This document shows, piece after piece, positions 14,877 through 22,443 of a stretch of DNA of 64,000 nt. The notes beneath the pieces are model-generated. The model was not told the origin of the DNA and searched no databases. It was given only the letters and a program-made list of their open reading frames with translations. The DNA comes from Alkalispirochaeta americana. GTDB taxonomy: Bacteria > Spirochaetota > Spirochaetia > DSM-27196 > Alkalispirochaetaceae. Location: NCBI RefSeq assembly GCF_900156105.1, contig NZ_FTMS01000012.1:1-64000 (forward strand), written 5' to 3'. Position 1 is the stretch's first letter; the number at the start of each line of letters is the position of its first letter. Both the position numbers and the translations under genes were made by a program.

Positions 14877-16316
14877 TCACGGGGCATCCCGGTTCTGAAC
14901 CCGGTTTCGGCCAGATTCCTTTGCCAGGTACAGGCGGCTGTCAGCTCGCTGAAGGAGCTTCTCCTGGAGGGCCTGAAGGTGAGTGGAATCAGAATGAGAC
15001 TGGAGTTCTTCCGGGGTGCAGAGTTCTTCCAGGGTCGAGACTCCCAGACTCATCGTTACGGGGTGATCAGGGATTATCGCAAGACCGGCCACGTGCTGGC
15101 GTATTCTCTCGGCCAGGGTGGTTGCGCTGGGCAAGTCGGTTTCGGGGAGAACAATGAGGAACTCCTCGCCGCCCCACCTCCCAAGGTGGTCGCTGGGCCG
15201 GAGGGATTCGGCCATGGCCGAAGCGGCGGCTTTCAGGACACTATCTCCCGCATCGTGGCCCAAGGTGTCGTTTACCGCCTTGAAGTGATCCAGATCGGCC
15301 ATAATGACCGACAGGGGACTGGTATAACGTATTGCCCGGGTCATCTCCCGGGAGAGTTCTTCCTGGATCTTTCGCCGGTTGGCGATGCCCGTGAGGGCAT
15401 CCTGCTCGGAGAGAGTCCGGAGTTTCTCCTGAAGGGTTTTTTCTTCGGTAATGTCCCGGGAGGCGCCCACGAGCTGAACGATTTTGCCCTCCCGGTATAT
15501 TGGGGCCAGTTTGGTTTGCCAGGTCCGGGTGCTCGCGGGAAGAGCCAGGGTTTCCTCGTAGGTGAGGGGTGCCCCTGCTTCAAGGCAGATTCGGTAGTAG
15601 CGCGAGACTGTCCGGGCCGTTTCCGGGGGCAGGAGTTCTTCCGGTGATTTTCCTCGCACCGCTTCGGTGGTAAAGCCCGTCAGTTCCTCGTGGGCCGGGT
15701 TGAGCTTGCGATAACGGAATACCGCCTGGGGCCGGGAATCTGTTTTTCGGGGCGTATCTTCCCGGGATGGAGCGTGGTCCACATCGACGAGAAAGATCGC
15801 GTCCTGGGTGTTCGAAAAGATGGCGTCGAGTTCGCCCAGGGCTATATCGCGTTCTTTTCGGAGTCGTCGCGTTTCGGTGATGTCGTTTTGTACCCCCACG
15901 TAGTGAGTTATTTTTCCCTCTTTGTCTGTGACGGGGTTTATGATCTGGAAGGCCCAGTAGAGGGTGCCGTCCTTGCGGCGATTGATAATCTCCTCCTGCC
16001 AGGATTCCCCTGCCAGAATTGTCTTCCAGAGCCGCTGGTAATACTCCAGGGCCATCTTTTCCGATTTGAGAACTGATATGTTTTTTCCGAGGAGCTCCTC
16101 CCGGGAATAGCCGGCGATGCGGCAGAATCCGGGGTTCACCATTTCCAGAACTCCCTCAGAGTCGGTAATGTAGATGCCGTGGTCTGCAGCGTCCACAGCT
16201 TGCTGCAGCAGAGGCTCTCTGGCCTCGGCACTTCTGCCGGTTGAACAGAGCATGATAGAATCCGTTCCGGTGCTTCGGTGTCCTGGATCATTTGCTTTCA
16301 AGTCATTTGACTCCAT
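14877..16316 (-). CDS. PAS-domain diguanylate cyclase
   Basis: This 479-residue protein has no clear membrane segment. A PAS domain follows the N terminus (AVDAADHGIYITDSEGVLEMVNPGF ... GYSREELLGKNISVL). A PAC segment (YWAFQIINPVTDKEGKITHYVGVQNDITE) and a second PAS (about 170-300) come next. The GGDEF domain runs from about residue 310 to the end, with the active-site loop GRWGGEEFLIVLPE (GGEEF variant, catalytically competent in the family). It would make cyclic di-GMP in response to a ligand or redox signal. ATG 16316 has no Shine-Dalgarno but lies six bases from a -10 box; ATG 16253, with GGA eight bases upstream, is an alternative. Confidence 0.88.
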   Translation of the reverse strand: MESNDLKANDPGHRSTGTDSIMLCSTGRSAEAREPLLQQAVDAADHGIYITDSEGVLEMVNPGFCRIAGYSREELLGKNISVLKSEKMALEYYQRLWKTILAGESWQEEIINRRKDGTLYWAFQIINPVTDKEGKITHYVGVQNDITETRRLRKERDIALGELDAIFSNTQDAIFLVDVDHAPSREDTPRKTDSRPQAVFRYRKLNPAHEELTGFTTEAVRGKSPEELLPPETARTVSRYYRICLEAGAPLTYEETLALPASTRTWQTKLAPIYREGKIVQLVGASRDITEEKTLQEKLRTLSEQDALTGIANRRKIQEELSREMTRAIRYTSPLSVIMADLDHFKAVNDTLGHDAGDSVLKAAASAMAESLRPSDHLGRWGGEEFLIVLPETDLPSATTLAERIRQHVAGLAIIPDHPVTMSLGVSTLEELCTPEELQSHSDSTHLQALQEKLLQRADSRLYLAKESGRNRVQNRDAP

Positions 16317-16322
16317 CGTAAT

Positions 16323-16352
16323 AATGTACAACAAATAAGAAGGTGGATGCAA
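16323..16352 (-). promoter_or_regulatory. promoter of the diguanylate cyclase, leaderless geometry
   Basis: TTGCAT, an 18-base spacer, TACATT, then six bases (ATTACG) before the ATG at 16316. No ribosome site is present. Confidence 0.5.
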
Positions 16353-16511
16353 AGTTTGCGGATTGCTGGCTGCGAAATGCGAATACCGTCGCTGTCCGGC
16401 CGAGAGCAACGGCTACAGCCATAAGGTGTGTGCGGAGTACTGCGCAACCACAGCATGAAGAGATGCTGCGCAGGGGCCTGTGGGTGCTGCGCAGGATATA
16501 AGGAGGGTCTG

Positions 16512-17819
16512 GTGAAACGGTGTATATGGGTGGGAATAATTTTTCTTGTGGCCGGAGGCTTTGTCTTCCCCGGGGGAATCTTCGAGCGATCATCTTCGGA
16601 AACAGCCGAAGGGTCTGAAGTGGGAGAGGGGGCCCGGGAGGTCTCCCGGGATATCCCCCAGGAGGTGGATACCCCCTCCTGGGTGCAGCTTATTCAGGAA
16701 GGAAAGCTCCGGGAGCTTCAGGACCAGTATCCCGGGTCTATCGTCGGGGTAGGGGAGGCTCAAAGCCGTGCGCAGGCAGAGGCCGCAGCTGCCGTGGACT
16801 TTGCCGGAAATCTTTCCACCGAAGTGGATGCCCGGGTTATCGATCGGGAAGTTGCTACTCGCGAGGGCTCCGAGTTTTTGCAGAAGGTAGAATCAGAGGT
16901 GAGAAGCCAGGCGATAATATCGGGAATTCGACCCGAGGCCTGGCGCCATCCCGCCAGCGGGATCTGGTACGCAAAAATACGCGCAACCCACGAGGAATAT
17001 CGAGTGAAGCTGGCCGAGTGGGCGCGTACCATGGCAGAGATGGGCGAGGCCGAGCGGGAACGGCAACTTCAGGCCCTGCGCGACGAGGAGGCCCGGGTTG
17101 TGCAGCGCCAGAAAGAGATCGAGCTGGACAAGATGCGGGATCAGGTTCGCCTGGCTGACCGGCGCATGCGGGCCGATCGGTACCGGGACTTTCTGGATCA
17201 CTCCCTCATGAGCCGCGAGCGGAGGCTTCCCACGGGGTACCTGCCCGGGGCGATCGAGATCAACCTGGCTTATACCGGGTCGGAAGACGAGCGGGCAGCA
17301 GATTTCTCGGTTGACAAGACGATGCTAAGGCTTTTCCAGGTCGGGCTGGACGGTCAGGGAATCTACGATACCGAGGAATCGGACGTGGCCGTGGAACTCA
17401 CGGGGCGGGTCATGGTCCAGGTCTTGTCCCGGGCCGGGCTTGTTACCAGCACCACCATCGGTTTGGGAGGGTTCGGAAGAGCTTCTCTGGGAGGGGCAAA
17501 GGACCGAGAGTGGGATGAGCAGGGGGCCTGGCTTGCCGGTCCTTTTGTGGTGGCCGATATCCTCATCCCGGCACTGCTCCACACGCGGTACAGCCTCTAT
17601 GCAGGAACCGATTACGCCCAGGCGAGGCTGGGGTGGTATCCTTTTTGGTGGGTGATCCAGGAGGCTGTAGCGGTTCACGTGGCAGCAACCTACGATGTGG
17701 ACGACGAAGACGCGCACTGGGGGGCGGGGCTGGCATTTCGTCCCGCCGAGGCGATACGGATCTTTCTGGAGTCGGAAAACCTCTCGTATCTCCGGGGAGG
17801 AATAACCTTGTCCTATTGA
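16512..17819 (+). CDS. LPP20-like envelope protein with coiled coil and beta-rich C-terminal domain
   Basis: This 435-residue protein starts at GTG 16512 with AAGGAGG four bases upstream; the frame is open back to 16428 but lacks such a site. A signal peptide covers about 1-22. Residues about 60-170 resemble the LPP20/flagellar-assembly lipoprotein domain (GVGEAQSRAQAEAAAAVDFAGNL, EVDARVIDREVATREG, WYAKIRATHEEY). A charged helical stretch with coiled-coil character follows (about 170-235). The C-terminal 200 residues are alternating beta strands ending GGITLSY, as in outer-membrane or barrel-like proteins. Its role is unknown; structural or envelope attachment is inferred. Confidence 0.72.
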   Translation: MKRCIWVGIIFLVAGGFVFPGGIFERSSSETAEGSEVGEGAREVSRDIPQEVDTPSWVQLIQEGKLRELQDQYPGSIVGVGEAQSRAQAEAAAAVDFAGNLSTEVDARVIDREVATREGSEFLQKVESEVRSQAIISGIRPEAWRHPASGIWYAKIRATHEEYRVKLAEWARTMAEMGEAERERQLQALRDEEARVVQRQKEIELDKMRDQVRLADRRMRADRYRDFLDHSLMSRERRLPTGYLPGAIEINLAYTGSEDERAADFSVDKTMLRLFQVGLDGQGIYDTEESDVAVELTGRVMVQVLSRAGLVTSTTIGLGGFGRASLGGAKDREWDEQGAWLAGPFVVADILIPALLHTRYSLYAGTDYAQARLGWYPFWWVIQEAVAVHVAATYDVDDEDAHWGAGLAFRPAEAIRIFLESENLSYLRGGITLSY

Positions 17820-17954: not shown

Positions 17955-20204
17955 TCAGACCTCGAAACTTCTCAACATGGTCTGCTGGGCCGACGAGGAG
18001 GATGCCAGGGACTGACTGCAGGCAAAGACGGCGTCCATGGCCTGCGATATTTCCTTCTGGGCATCTTCTACCTCCCGGATGTCGGTGACCAGGTTCTTCA
18101 ACCCTGTTTCAAACTCTTCCGTCGAGAGATCTACCTTCTGAAGTTGCTCCCGCACCGTTTCCAGGTGATGCCGAACGGAGTTGATGGTGGTGGTGTTGTG
18201 CTCCATCTGGGAGAGAATTGACTGAAAGACCTCCTCCATCCGTTTGGAGGTTTCCCTGTTTCGCTGGATCGACTGGACGCTGGTGTCTACCGTGGAAGAG
18301 ACCTCCCGGATATTCTCTACCACTTCTCCCAGGTGGGTTTCGATCCGGTCGCTCGTTTGGGACGATTGGGCCGAGAGGGCGCGGATCTCGTCGGCCACTA
18401 CGGCAAACCCCCGGCCAGCCTCGCCGGCCCGGGCAGATTCGATGGCGGCGTTCATGGCAAGCATATGGGTTCGATCGCCGATATCCTTGATTGCCTGGAT
18501 CAACTGCAACACATCCTGGGAGCGCCCGGCGAGTTTCTCTACAACGCTGGCAGTATTGCTGATGGTCGTGACGGTTTTGTCGGTCTCGGCGATTCCCTGG
18601 TTAATGGTTGTTCCTCCCTCTTCGGAGGCTACCCGGATTTGCTCTGCCCGGGAGACCATCTCGGGGAGTGTTTCTGCCATCCCTTCCAGGGCAGAACGGA
18701 GTTCCGAGCTTGCTTCGGTAATGCGGTGACTCGCCCGTTCCTGCGTCAGGGACTGCTCTTTGAGGCTCGTTGCTGCGGCTTCCACCCGTTTCAGTACCTT
18801 TCCTGACCGGTCAGCACCAGCCGAGAGATCCTCGGCGGCAGAGCCAACGATTCGGGCCTGGTCCCGGATAGAGAAGATCATCTCCCTCAACGACGCCGGT
18901 TCCTGGTTGCAGGTTGCCACAACAACCCCCATATCGGCAGCCTCGTTGATGGTTGGGATCAGCTGGTCGGAGAAAACGGGAACTACCAGACCGTGGGCAC
19001 CATTTTTTGCCACCCGGCGAATCATGCGGTGCCACTGCTCAAGGTCGTAGGGTTTGGAAGGGTCATCGGGGAGGGCCACCGTAACCTGTACTCCCAGATT
19101 CTTCAGTTCCTGTTGTGCTTCCTGTGCTCCCAGCTCCACGGTATTCCAGAAGTCGTAGTTCTTGGGGAGAAGATAGGTGATTTTCAGAAGGCGGTCGGGA
19201 CGCTTCGGGGAGAGGGCTGCGCGATCCTCCCTGTCGATGGGGTTTGCCAGCATGGCGCGGTAGTTTTCCTGATTCAGTGTTTTGGGGACAATAAACTGAC
19301 GAGGCGTCTCCGGTTTCCATCCGCTCACCAGATGGTTGTAAATGTGGACCATGGGGTTGAAGCCCTGGAGATAGGGGTCCTGTGTGAGGGTCGCGTCGAG
19401 GTGTCCTGACTCGAAAAAGGAGAGAAAATCCTTCCTGCGCCCGTGGCCCACCAGGATTGTCCGGTTTGGAGGAAACTGTTCCTGGATGGCCTTGAAGACC
19501 GCCTCGGTGGAGGCTTCTTCCAACTGATATACAGCGGTAATGGAGGGATCCGTGCGCAGGACCTCGCAGATTCCCGTGATGGCGCGCTCGGCATTGCGCC
19601 CGCTGTAGATCACCTGACCAAGATCCACCCCGGCAAACTCCGTGTTCAGGGTGCTGGTAAAGCCCCGTTCCCGCAGGACAGAGTAGTTGGTGGAGTGGTC
19701 TACGGCCACTACGGCCACGCGTCCCTTGCCGCCGCAGAGTTCGCCGATCAGACGTGCCGCCCGCTGTCCGTGGGCAAAATCGTCAATGCCGGTGTAGATC
19801 AGGCGTTTGATAGGGACCGCCGTGAGGGATGTTGCCGCATCGGTGCTGGCCGACAGTTGTTCCACCAGGTCGTTGTAGGCCTCCCGGGCGACGGCGCAAC
19901 CTCCCCGGCCTTGCTTCCCTGTTTCCCAGCGCCGGGGTTTTTGTGGTGGCGAGGTGTTGAGTCTCCCCTTTGCCACATCCCAAATCAGCCGCGAGAGCGG
20001 TTGAGCCGATTCGGTTACGGCTTCCCTGATATGAGTTACCAGATCGGCCTGTTCCCGCCGCAAGAGGCGTTGCCGCACCAGGGCGTATCCCAGAAACAGC
20101 AACGCCGCCGCCGCCAGGAGCGGTTCCGCCATTCCTCCCTGCATCCAAAGAGCCCCTCCCGTCAGGAGAAGGGCCAGACCCCCGAAAAAAACTGCCATAG
20201 CCAT
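17955..20204 (-). CDS. methyl-accepting chemotaxis protein with a lobe-swapped periplasmic-binding-protein-like sensor
   Basis: This 749-residue protein starts at ATG 20204 (the frame is open to a TTG at 20243). Two hydrophobic helices (about 3-22, 26-44) form a tight hairpin, so the rest should be cytoplasmic. Residues about 132-310 match the C-terminal lobe of ribose/LacI-type binding proteins (IYTGIDDFAHGQRAARLI, GKGRVAVV, RERGF, DATLTQDPYLQG). Residues about 339-440 match the N-terminal lobe of the same fold (YDFWNTVELGAQEAQQELKNLGVQVTV, GLVVPVFSDQLIPTINEA, VVVATCNQEP). The lobes are therefore in reversed order. Residues about 455-749 are the MCP signalling coiled coil with tip GDRTHMLAMNAAIESARAGEAGRGFAVVADEIRAL. 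It likely signals to CheA/CheW. Confidence 0.9.
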   Translation of the reverse strand: MAMAVFFGGLALLLTGGALWMQGGMAEPLLAAAALLFLGYALVRQRLLRREQADLVTHIREAVTESAQPLSRLIWDVAKGRLNTSPPQKPRRWETGKQGRGGCAVAREAYNDLVEQLSASTDAATSLTAVPIKRLIYTGIDDFAHGQRAARLIGELCGGKGRVAVVAVDHSTNYSVLRERGFTSTLNTEFAGVDLGQVIYSGRNAERAITGICEVLRTDPSITAVYQLEEASTEAVFKAIQEQFPPNRTILVGHGRRKDFLSFFESGHLDATLTQDPYLQGFNPMVHIYNHLVSGWKPETPRQFIVPKTLNQENYRAMLANPIDREDRAALSPKRPDRLLKITYLLPKNYDFWNTVELGAQEAQQELKNLGVQVTVALPDDPSKPYDLEQWHRMIRRVAKNGAHGLVVPVFSDQLIPTINEAADMGVVVATCNQEPASLREMIFSIRDQARIVGSAAEDLSAGADRSGKVLKRVEAAATSLKEQSLTQERASHRITEASSELRSALEGMAETLPEMVSRAEQIRVASEEGGTTINQGIAETDKTVTTISNTASVVEKLAGRSQDVLQLIQAIKDIGDRTHMLAMNAAIESARAGEAGRGFAVVADEIRALSAQSSQTSDRIETHLGEVVENIREVSSTVDTSVQSIQRNRETSKRMEEVFQSILSQMEHNTTTINSVRHHLETVREQLQKVDLSTEEFETGLKNLVTDIREVEDAQKEISQAMDAVFACSQSLASSSSAQQTMLRSFEV

Positions 20205-20214
20205 AGGTGAGAAT

Positions 20215-20243
20215 ATGTTATCACCACAATGACGAATGTGCAA
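20215..20243 (-). promoter_or_regulatory. promoter of the lobe-swapped chemoreceptor, near-leaderless
   Basis: TTGCAC, a 17-base spacer, TAACAT, then ten bases before ATG 20204. The transcript start is predicted about 4 bases ahead of the ATG, with no ribosome site. This supports ATG 20204 over the upstream TTG, which lies inside the -35 box. Confidence 0.6.
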
Positions 20244-20288: not shown

Positions 20289-21722
20289 TCAGTGGTCCTG
20301 TGGAAATTCCGGCGGGGAGGAGCCTGCTTCCGGGGGTGTTGCCCGAGGGAGCACAAGATGGGCCACAACGGTCTCTTCCTGCTGGCTGATGGTGATTCTT
20401 CCCTGGTGGCGGTCCACGATGGCCCTGGTGATGGCCAGGCCCAGGCCAGATCCGGGAGACGACCGGCTTCGATCGCCCCGATAGAGACGGTCGAAGAGGT
20501 GCTCCCGGTCCTTTTCGGGAATCCATCCCTTGTTTTCTACCCAAAGATGAACTTCCCGAGGGGTCTCGGTGATTCGCGCCGTCACAGGCCTGTGTGGATC
20601 ACCGTGAATCAGTGCGTTTTCCAGCAGGTTTGTCAGTGCTCGAAGCAGAAGGTTTCGGTCTCCCCGGCACAAAGCGGGGGGTATATCGAGGGTCCATAGA
20701 TCGTGCCGTGGGGTATCCCCCTCTGGAGTATTGGAGAGATCGTTCCTCTCTCTCCGGTGGGCAATTCGCTCCGTGGCGGTGTTGACAAGCTGGTCCAGAC
20801 GGACTGGTTCTTCCTCCAGGGAGAGCTCCGGTGATTCCACCCAGCTGAGTTCCCGCAAAGCCCGAACCAGCTCTTCCACCCGGTGCACCTCGCTGAAAAG
20901 CGACCGGAGTCGTTCCGGCGCCGGTGCCAGCACCCCCTCGATCATCCCCTCCAGCTGGGATGCCAGAGCGGAGACAGGCGTCCTGAGATCGTGGGAAATA
21001 TCTTGCATCCACTGCCGGCGCAACTGCTCTGCCTGGGTGAGTTGATCCTGCAAGGCTCGGGCTGCATCGGCTATGGCCCGAAGCTCCTGGGCGCCCTCCC
21101 GGGGAAAGGAGACATGACGGCTCCCCGAGGCCAGATCACCCAGTCCGGTGGCGAGTCTGCTGGCTTGGGCAGTGAGATGCCTCGAAATCAACCCTGCCCC
21201 CACCAGGGCCAGCGCCAGGGAGAGCAGGAGTGCCACTGCCACCGTCAGAACCAGGGAGTTAATGAATTGCCGGTTCGAGAGGTCGCTTCGAAATCCCAGG
21301 GTGTCCACGGACAGATAGGCCACCAGATGTTCCTGATCAAAAACGGCCAGTGCAGGATTCCGTGTTTTTCCCAGGGTCGACAAAAGAGGGTCCAGATTTC
21401 TTGTATCCTCCGGATCGATCCGTGCTCCCTGATGATAGACAAAAACCGGTTCTCTCTGAGGGTCCAGGATTACCAGAGAAACTCCGGGAGTGAGGAATCG
21501 ACCCAGGGCCGGCGAGAGACGTTCTTCCTGAAGTGTTCCTTCTGCACGGACCACGCGCAGGATTTCCCGGGAGAAGGTGCTCTGGAGGTGGCGGGTTTTG
21601 TTGACGTTCCAGAGGGTCACCGATCGGCGAAGGCCCATCATAAAGATCACCCCCAGAACAATGCTCAGAAGCAAAAGCGCCCCTGCCATGCCCAGAAAAG
21701 TGCGGCCGAAGAGTGTTTTCAC
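20289..21722 (-). CDS. membrane sensor histidine kinase, BaeS/PhoR type
   Basis: This 477-residue protein starts at GTG 21722. TM1 lies at about 11-32, a periplasmic sensor domain at about 33-160, and TM2 at about 166-188. A HAMP linker follows (about 188-240). The HisKA box DISHDLRTPVSALASQ carries the phospho-His at about 257. The ATPase domain has NLLENALIHG (N box), DREHLFDRLYRGD (F box) and GSGLGLAITRAIVDRH (G2 box). It is last in an operon YD-repeat protein - response regulator - kinase. The signal is unknown; an envelope stress cue is plausible given the partner genes. Confidence 0.92.
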   Translation of the reverse strand: MKTLFGRTFLGMAGALLLLSIVLGVIFMMGLRRSVTLWNVNKTRHLQSTFSREILRVVRAEGTLQEERLSPALGRFLTPGVSLVILDPQREPVFVYHQGARIDPEDTRNLDPLLSTLGKTRNPALAVFDQEHLVAYLSVDTLGFRSDLSNRQFINSLVLTVAVALLLSLALALVGAGLISRHLTAQASRLATGLGDLASGSRHVSFPREGAQELRAIADAARALQDQLTQAEQLRRQWMQDISHDLRTPVSALASQLEGMIEGVLAPAPERLRSLFSEVHRVEELVRALRELSWVESPELSLEEEPVRLDQLVNTATERIAHRRERNDLSNTPEGDTPRHDLWTLDIPPALCRGDRNLLLRALTNLLENALIHGDPHRPVTARITETPREVHLWVENKGWIPEKDREHLFDRLYRGDRSRSSPGSGLGLAITRAIVDRHQGRITISQQEETVVAHLVLPRATPPEAGSSPPEFPQDH

Positions 21723-21753: not shown

Positions 21754-22443
21754 TCAACGGGGTTCTCCTGTAAAGCGGTAGCCGTAGCCTCGGACCGTCT
21801 CGAACCAGTCAGGATCTGTCAGTTTTCCTCGCAGATTTGAGAGATGGGTGTCCACGGTTCGTTCGGAGCCGTTGTGAAGATGCCCCAGGCAGTTCGAAAG
21901 GATCGATTCCCGGGAGACAACGCGGGGTGCCCGGGTGGCGCAGTACCACATGATTTCCCACTCGCCTGTGGTCAGGGCCAGAGGTTCTCCTTCCAGCAGG
22001 GCGATCCGGGTTTCCCGGTTCAGTTCCAGGGTCATTCCGTTATGGGTCCAGCGGCCCGATTCTCCCTGTTCCTCCGGAAGCGATCCGCCCCTCCGGAGAA
22101 GGGCCTGGACGCGCAAAACCAGCTCCTTGTTGGAAAAGGGTTTGACAACGTAGTCATCAGCTCCGATTTCAAAGCCCGTGATCCGATCCGATTCAGCGTC
22201 TCGCGCCGAGAGGAAGAGCAGGGGAGCCGATGTTTGGGCTCGCAGGCGTTTTGCCAGGAGAAAGCCGTCTCCGTCGGGGAGCATAATGTCCAGAATGATC
22301 AGATCGACCGACCGGGACGAGATCGCTTCCGCCACCCCTGTCACCCCCGGGAACTCGAGAACCTGGTGCCCTTCAAGCTGAAGATATTGCGAAACAGCCT
22401 CCCGGATGTTCTGGTTGTCTTCCACGATGATGATGTGAGCCAT
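21754..22443 (-). CDS. OmpR/PhoB-family response regulator
   Basis: This 229-residue protein has a receiver at 1-120 (IIIVEDNQNIREAV, phospho-Asp in LIILDIMLPDGDG, Lys in DYVVKPFSNKELV). A winged-helix output follows at about 130-229 (LTTGEWEIMWYCATRAPRVVSRESIL, SERTVDTHLSNLRGKL, VRGYGYRF). It starts 3 bases after the stop of the upstream YD-repeat gene and is followed by its kinase. An 11-bp direct repeat upstream of the operon (23435-23456) has the spacing typical of OmpR-family sites, so it may regulate itself and the divergent DUF4168 gene. Confidence 0.94.
   Translation of the reverse strand: MAHIIIVEDNQNIREAVSQYLQLEGHQVLEFPGVTGVAEAISSRSVDLIILDIMLPDGDGFLLAKRLRAQTSAPLLFLSARDAESDRITGFEIGADDYVVKPFSNKELVLRVQALLRRGGSLPEEQGESGRWTHNGMTLELNRETRIALLEGEPLALTTGEWEIMWYCATRAPRVVSRESILSNCLGHLHNGSERTVDTHLSNLRGKLTDPDWFETVRGYGYRFTGEPR

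Follow-up and report, generated by a model that had tools for sequence, protein, structure and literature searches.

Permuted type I binding proteins have a precedent among the spirochaetes. TpMglB-2 (Tp0684) of Treponema pallidum is a circularly permuted ligand-binding protein with a type I sugar-binding fold, described as 'Type Ic / Cluster Bc' (PMC4990184; PDB 5jx2, 6bgd). It binds glucose in its cleft and changes conformation on binding, so a permuted type I binding protein can work (PMC4990184). TpMglB-2 is cut inside the N-lobe after strand 3, with strands 1–3 moved to the C-terminus (PMC4990184), and it works outside the cytoplasm, as the lipoprotein component of an ABC transporter. The chemoreceptor described here, from the spirochaete Alkalispirochaeta americana, likewise carries a circularly permuted type I fold, and Foldseek aligns TpMglB-2 along most of its sensor. 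Its cut, however, lies at the first hinge crossing and moves four strands, and its sensor is predicted to be a cytoplasmic, fused domain; these differences in cut and export place the receptor outside the TpMglB-2 subclass. TpMglB-2 was absent from the 50 VIA-align rows listed, which is no argument against the resemblance.

The closest sequence relatives of both lobes are the sugar-binding proteins (SBPs) of ribose-type ABC transporters in spirochaetes (L083, L084, L090–L092 and L095) and the Thermotoga maritima glucose-binding protein (TmGBP; 2h3h). The six spirochaetal SBPs have a conserved mature N-terminal extension of ~30 residues before the first strand (RELPPGPxFxSA...GEVKPI). They are exported, separate proteins in N–C order, encoded beside an RbsC-like permease, whereas the receptor sensor has the C–N order and is apparently not exported; their extension is apparently the nearest relative of the linker between the receptor's lobes. 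Spirochaetal LacI-family regulators (L085, L087, L093 and L094) use the same fold in the cytoplasm and have a quite similar C-lobe, but their N-lobe is weakly similar, their lobe order is normal and they carry a DNA-binding domain.

Periplasmic Venus flytrap receptors differ from the A. americana receptor in being extracytoplasmic, in having the standard lobe order and in being kinases rather than MCPs. What the BvgS family (PMC5829827) and the BT1754 hybrid kinase (PDB 2x7x) share with it is the fusion of a binding-protein domain to signalling machinery. Reading of an intracellular metabolite by spirochaetal chemotaxis, as proposed here, has a parallel in Treponema denticola CheWS, which senses SAM in the cytosol as part of the chemotaxis array (PMC10653840). 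CheWS differs in that a CheR-like sensor sits on a CheW, rather than a binding-protein domain on a receptor.

The receptor gene lies on the minus strand of the 64,000-nucleotide stretch of A. americana DNA that was analysed (the window), and its open reading frame runs from an ATG at 20204 to a stop codon at 17955–17957. An in-frame TTG at 20243 adds 13 residues, MHIRHCGDNIFSPM (20205–20243, minus), at the N-terminus. This TTG may be the true start, because the 13 upstream codons are partly conserved at the protein level in two relatives (MHIRHIGGNIFSRM and MHVCQLRGNVFSPM). Alkalispirochaeta alkalica has a protein 92% identical to the receptor. The A. americana genome yields 27 chemoreceptor-like matches, and the permuted sensor domain was found in the window receptor only.

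Table 1. Positions in the window of the permuted chemoreceptor gene and its domains, with the basis for each assignment.
Feature	Residues	Position	Strand	Basis
Chemoreceptor gene	749 aa from ATG	17955..20204	minus	ORF; full-length homologues
Membrane hairpin	1–43	20076..20204	minus	Hydropathy in 18 members; model helices 2–23 and 26–78
HAMP-like helical stalk, invariant Gly80 (A-x-G-x-L)	~63–118	19851..20018	minus	hhalign
C-lobe (second lobe)	130–320	19245..19817	minus	Peripla_BP_4 profile 91–253; VIA-align Z 20–24
Inter-lobe linker, 15–16 residues	322–338	19191..19241	minus	Joins old C-terminus to old N-terminus
N-lobe (first lobe), four strands	339–437	18894..19190	minus	Peripla_BP_4 profile 9–98; separate model
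MCP coiled-coil hairpin	438–749	17958..18893	minus	Model helix 439–479; alignment
MCPsignal (PF00015)	541–696	18117..18584	minus	Pfam, 102.3 bits, cut-off 34.6

The sensor runs from the C-lobe to the N-lobe and is followed directly by the MCP signalling helix. This reversed order, claimed in a sequence-only reading of the window, was borne out by profile coordinates and by rejoining the halves. Residues 130–291 match positions 91–253 of the Peripla_BP_4 profile (258 positions) and residues 349–443 match positions 9–98, the two lobes together scoring about 90 bits (90.1–90.9) against a cut-off of 35.1. When the halves were rejoined in the standard order, the two matches (90.1 bits) became a single match to positions 9–253 (105 bits). 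Correspondingly, the native order gave two separate matches per chain against PDB sequences and the rejoined order one long match; in 6gq0, for example, the first half of the sensor matched chain residues 123–285 and the second half residues 41–122. The C-before-N order was present in 18 of 18 aligned members, and every MCP homologue found has it. By comparison, the ordinary full-profile Peripla_BP_4 ORFs of the genome all run N to C and are single binding proteins of 348–444 aa. A chance match or frameshift artefact was ruled out by the E-values and by the open frame and reversed order in 22 Spirochaetota genes, the order recurring on a Chloroflexota plasmid. The accompanying premise that the N-lobe always precedes the C-lobe was wrong, as the published permutation of TpMglB-2 demonstrates (PMC4990184). 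No Pfam match for a second, hidden lobe, as in a full N1-C1-N2-C2 arrangement, was found elsewhere in the receptor, and the sensor is flanked by the HAMP-like stalk and the coiled coil.

An AlphaFold2 model of residues 1–480, built as a single chain on 18 homologues, had a mean pLDDT of 86.4; the value per ten-residue block was about 85–98 over residues 131–430 and mostly >90 over residues 131–440. The modelled chain passes through six C-lobe strands (136–274), a returning helix (277–294) that belongs to the N-lobe and two short strands (302–310) that complete the C-lobe, all within the C-lobe segment. After the linker come four N-lobe strands (340–345, 372–377, 405–409 and 428–433) and a long exit helix from residue 439. 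Structural comparison was made half by half, each lobe separately. Residues 126–326 of the model matched residues ~100–300 of sugar-binding proteins, at the Z-scores given in Table 1. A separate model of the second half (121 residues; pLDDT 86.6; pTM 0.80) matched residues ~1–100 of LsrB, GanP, RbsB and TmGBP (VIA-align Z 10–13). It also matched 7qsq, the permuted N-lobe of T. maritima RBP in isolated form (Z 11.7). In these models each half of the sensor shows the fold of the lobe predicted from sequence, and neither adopts an independent fold of another kind.

The N-lobe of the receptor ends in the hinge motif N-Q-E-P, and the MCP coiled coil starts directly at its exit, with P436 followed by an invariant R440. 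An earlier suggestion that the hinge feeds straight into the MCP helix agrees with the model, in which the exit strand continues into the helix from residue 439. The tip of the MCP hairpin, LAMNAAIESARAGEAGRGFAVVADEIR, is invariant in the three closest relatives and fits the MCP consensus E-A/S-A-R-A-G-E-x-G-x-G-F. The MCPsignal cut-off was also passed by eight of eight full-length homologues scanned.

Hydropathy analysis of 18 members revealed one or two clear membrane segments, at the N-terminus only and followed by basic residues, and no membrane segment between the sensor and the MCP domain. In one member (L080), a marginal peak within the N-lobe falls on a strand of the fold. In the window receptor, the two membrane helices are separated by a very short loop and followed by the basic stretch RQRLLRREQ, as expected of the short hairpin that the sequence-only reading had placed here. 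Because no predicted membrane crossing separates it from the signalling domain, the sensor must lie in the same compartment as that domain, the cytoplasm, as had also been claimed. Between the membrane and the sensor, the stalk carries the invariant Gly80 of its A-x-G-x-L motif. The family profile of the stalk matched ten of the genome's own HAMP domains (hhalign; probability 94.5%, E 8e-8), and HAMP (PF00672) gave no Pfam match in the stalk at E≤1; the stalk is called HAMP-like here, an assignment that comes from one profile comparison.

Pocket positions were identified by aligning the sensor with E. coli RbsB, using the residues that we take to be the RbsB ligand contacts. Arg141 of RbsB corresponds to Arg178 of the receptor, which is invariant in all sequences compared, while Phe16, Asp89 and Gln235 correspond to Trp353, Asn433 and Gln275. 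Elsewhere the pocket is unlike that of RbsB and changes from subfamily to subfamily, and some subfamilies have Cys, Asp, Lys or Glu in place of Gln235. Since the pocket departs from RbsB in this way, the ligand need not be a sugar, and because the pockets of other subfamilies differ, ligands probably differ between subfamilies too. Between the window receptor and its relative L056, 12 of 14 pocket positions are identical, compared with 41% of the domain's other positions (P about 0.001 for 14 random positions to do as well). The hinge motif N-x-E-P is nearly invariant, with P436 replaced by Leu in one member and Asn433 varying in 4 of 18. The better conservation of the pocket than of the rest of the domain suggests that it binds a small ligand.

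A histidine kinase gene (20289–21722) and a response regulator ORF (21754–22443) lie immediately upstream of the receptor gene at short gaps, likewise on the minus strand. A histidine kinase is also found beside the receptor of the closest relative (L018) and is missing from that of the next (L019); neighbours were inconsistent among the relatives compared and gave no hint of the ligand, and no transporter gene was recognised beside the receptor in the window. Tail to tail with the receptor gene is an ORF on the plus strand (16428–17819) that belongs to no clear family and shows a weak LPP20-like match (E 0.03); its own neighbour (14877–16409, minus) encodes a GGDEF protein with two PAS domains. 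In a member from another spirochaete class (L099:616-7762), the receptor gene lies among TRAP transporter-, SDR dehydrogenase-, aminopeptidase- and Bug-type binding protein-like genes, a possible hint at an organic-acid or sugar-acid ligand for that receptor.

It is proposed that the protein is a membrane-anchored MCP whose cytoplasmic, permuted type I sensor binds a small ligand and moves the signalling helix by lobe closure, an account that we regard as probable. The chain runs from the membrane hairpin through the HAMP-like stalk, C-lobe, linker and N-lobe to the MCP signalling hairpin, and a small cytoplasmic ligand, perhaps sugar-like, would be bound in the cleft. Three strands cross between the lobes in the type I fold, and the first of these crossings is the one that is cut, one cut end carrying the stalk into the C-lobe and the other carrying the signalling helix out of the N-lobe. 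As a consequence of this cut, the stalk would hold the C-lobe and the signalling helix the N-lobe, with both attachments beside the cleft. The last N-lobe strand carries the pocket residue Asn433, and Glu435 and Pro436 follow before the invariant Arg440 at the start of the signalling helix. Lobe closure would then turn the N-lobe against the stalk-borne C-lobe, so that the start of the signalling helix would rotate or be displaced and CheA activity would change, and the cell would navigate by compounds that it has imported or produced. That the receptor reads an internal metabolite, and that its transmission may differ from that of periplasmic receptors, had both been put forward in the sequence-only reading. 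PAS domains of normal cytoplasmic MCPs play a similar part, in line with HAMP and the coiled coil.

An alternative is that the permuted domain binds no small molecule and serves as a spacer, or as a docking platform for a protein such as a transporter component or a modified CheW, with the signal arising in the hairpin or stalk. The departure of several pocket positions from RbsB, their variation by subfamily and the replacement of Gln235 in some members would fit such a role, and many cytoplasmic-type MCPs sense energy state through other parts of the molecule. The explanation is nevertheless unlikely, given that the pocket of the window's own subfamily is conserved well beyond the rest of the domain, that Arg178 is invariant and that the hinge is nearly so.

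Less likely again is an arrangement in which the lobes are swapped between dimer subunits, so that the cleft forms only in the dimer and the ligand reports or enforces dimer geometry. MCPs are obligate dimers. The isolated lobes of permuted T. maritima RBP dimerise, one of them by segment swapping (PMC9815098), and the receptor model covers one chain. The linker of 15–16 residues, near-constant in length in the 18 members, and the confident single-chain model fit pairing within a chain instead. That the sensor is periplasmic and the topology misread is very improbable. The nearest standard-order relatives are indeed exported ABC binding proteins, but only a signalling domain located in the cytoplasm can contact CheA and CheW, none of the 18 members has a membrane segment between sensor and MCP domain, the exit helix runs on into the MCP helix without a break and the stretch behind the hairpin is strongly basic.

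Family profile searches found the permuted sensor in at least 22 genes, spread over 19 genomes of the Spirochaetota that represent two classes and 15 genera, in every case in an ORF of 722–824 aa. In the class search, in which up to five candidates were scored per genome, permuted receptors reached 275–472 bits across the whole profile, whereas ordinary binding proteins reached up to 156 bits, piecewise and in ORFs mostly of 225–480 aa, leaving a clear gap between the two. Among the matches listed in that search (at most five candidates scored per genome), no PBP–MCP fusion in the standard order was found; fusions from other PBP lineages would escape it. One spirochaete genome encodes two different permuted receptors in tandem (L096:1382-3658 and L096:3835-6117), and two further genomes (G459 and G507) have two copies each.

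Outside the Spirochaetota, a plasmid search was used. Plasmid AP024711.1 of Leptolinea sp. HRD-7 (Chloroflexota) encodes a permuted receptor of 840 aa (hrd7_33420; L120:5611-8133), so the type reaches beyond the Spirochaetota. The protein, annotated as 'hypothetical protein', has two N-terminal hydrophobic segments, a C-lobe (profile 94–254 at residues 158–317), an N-lobe ending in PIATFNSE and MCPsignal. Gene transfer between phyla is a possible explanation for this plasmid copy. The permuted receptor is an established type, apparently still without a name, rather than the accident of one gene.

With respect to its origin, sequence comparison shows the permuted sensor to be closest to the SBPs of the spirochaetal ribose-type ABC transporter. 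When the rejoined domains were placed in a tree, the permuted sensors grouped together (support 83/75) next to the SBPs (89/90), and the LacI regulators fell outside. A single origin of the permuted sensors is likely from this tree but unproven, because the support for their clade is only 83/75. A LacI regulator as parent was ruled out, in favour of an SBP, by this tree position and by weak N-lobe matches to the permuted-sensor profile (12–24 bits, versus 78–100 for SBPs).

Further comparison of the permuted-sensor HMM, in native order, with one of the SBPs (L083) gave two pieces, of 100.5 and 181.5 bits, for the single protein, but one stretch of 288 bits (positions 5–315 of 316) for a head-to-tail tandem of it. 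The N-lobe match begins upstream of the first strand, within the mature N-terminal extension of the SBP. This extension, GAVKPIKASEEPLKIAV, resembles linkers of the receptor family such as LTKPVSDKPGRPLKIAV and RAKPIKKADKRVNIL, whose length is nearly constant in 18 of 18 members. The resemblance is short: the extensions added 8–14 bits over no extension and beat 298–300 of 300 shuffles for each of the six SBPs, which are related and therefore count as one test. The breakpoint lies in the parental hinge segment, SBP VATFNSET|DTENKRVFFVGAD, compared with the receptor exit ...VATFNSEP-x-SLR and entry ...T-x-EP-x-x-R-x-CYVGAD.

The single-stretch match to the SBP tandem and the likeness of the linker to the mature N-terminus support, and lead us to favour, head-to-tail duplication of an SBP gene with subsequent loss of the outer lobes. 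From an N1-C1-N2-C2 tandem, the membrane hairpin and stalk would have taken the place of N1, and the MCP signalling domain that of C2. The sequence-only reading had offered the remnant of such a tandem as an alternative to circular permutation, and the tandem match, linker and breakpoint speak for it. Tandem duplication is the usual route to circular permutation, and so the two are not rivals.

MCPs, type I binding proteins and circular permutation are all known kinds, and it is their combination in this receptor that is apparently undescribed; no earlier account of a chemoreceptor whose binding-protein domain is permuted or cytoplasmic was found in the open-licence literature. The fullest account is of an apparently undescribed chemoreceptor class in which permutation at the hinge creates an in-line switch that reads a cytoplasmic metabolite, which arose from an SBP tandem and which spread across the Spirochaetota and at least into the Chloroflexota. 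Taken as a whole, that account has about an even chance of being right.

The receptor offers a natural circular permutation whose parent would still be recognisable. Both breakpoints can be located to within a few residues, and the linker between the lobes can be followed back to the mature N-terminus of the parent; clean cases of this kind are useful for the study of fold evolution. With two termini at the hinge, beside the putative ligand site, it also presents a compact design for engineered biosensors. The class is easily overlooked, because automatic annotation gives only a partial Peripla_BP_4 match and MCPsignal. For the spirochaetes themselves, it would place the binding-protein fold as the cytoplasmic sensor of a chemoreceptor, in bacteria whose metabolite-dependent taxis is little understood.
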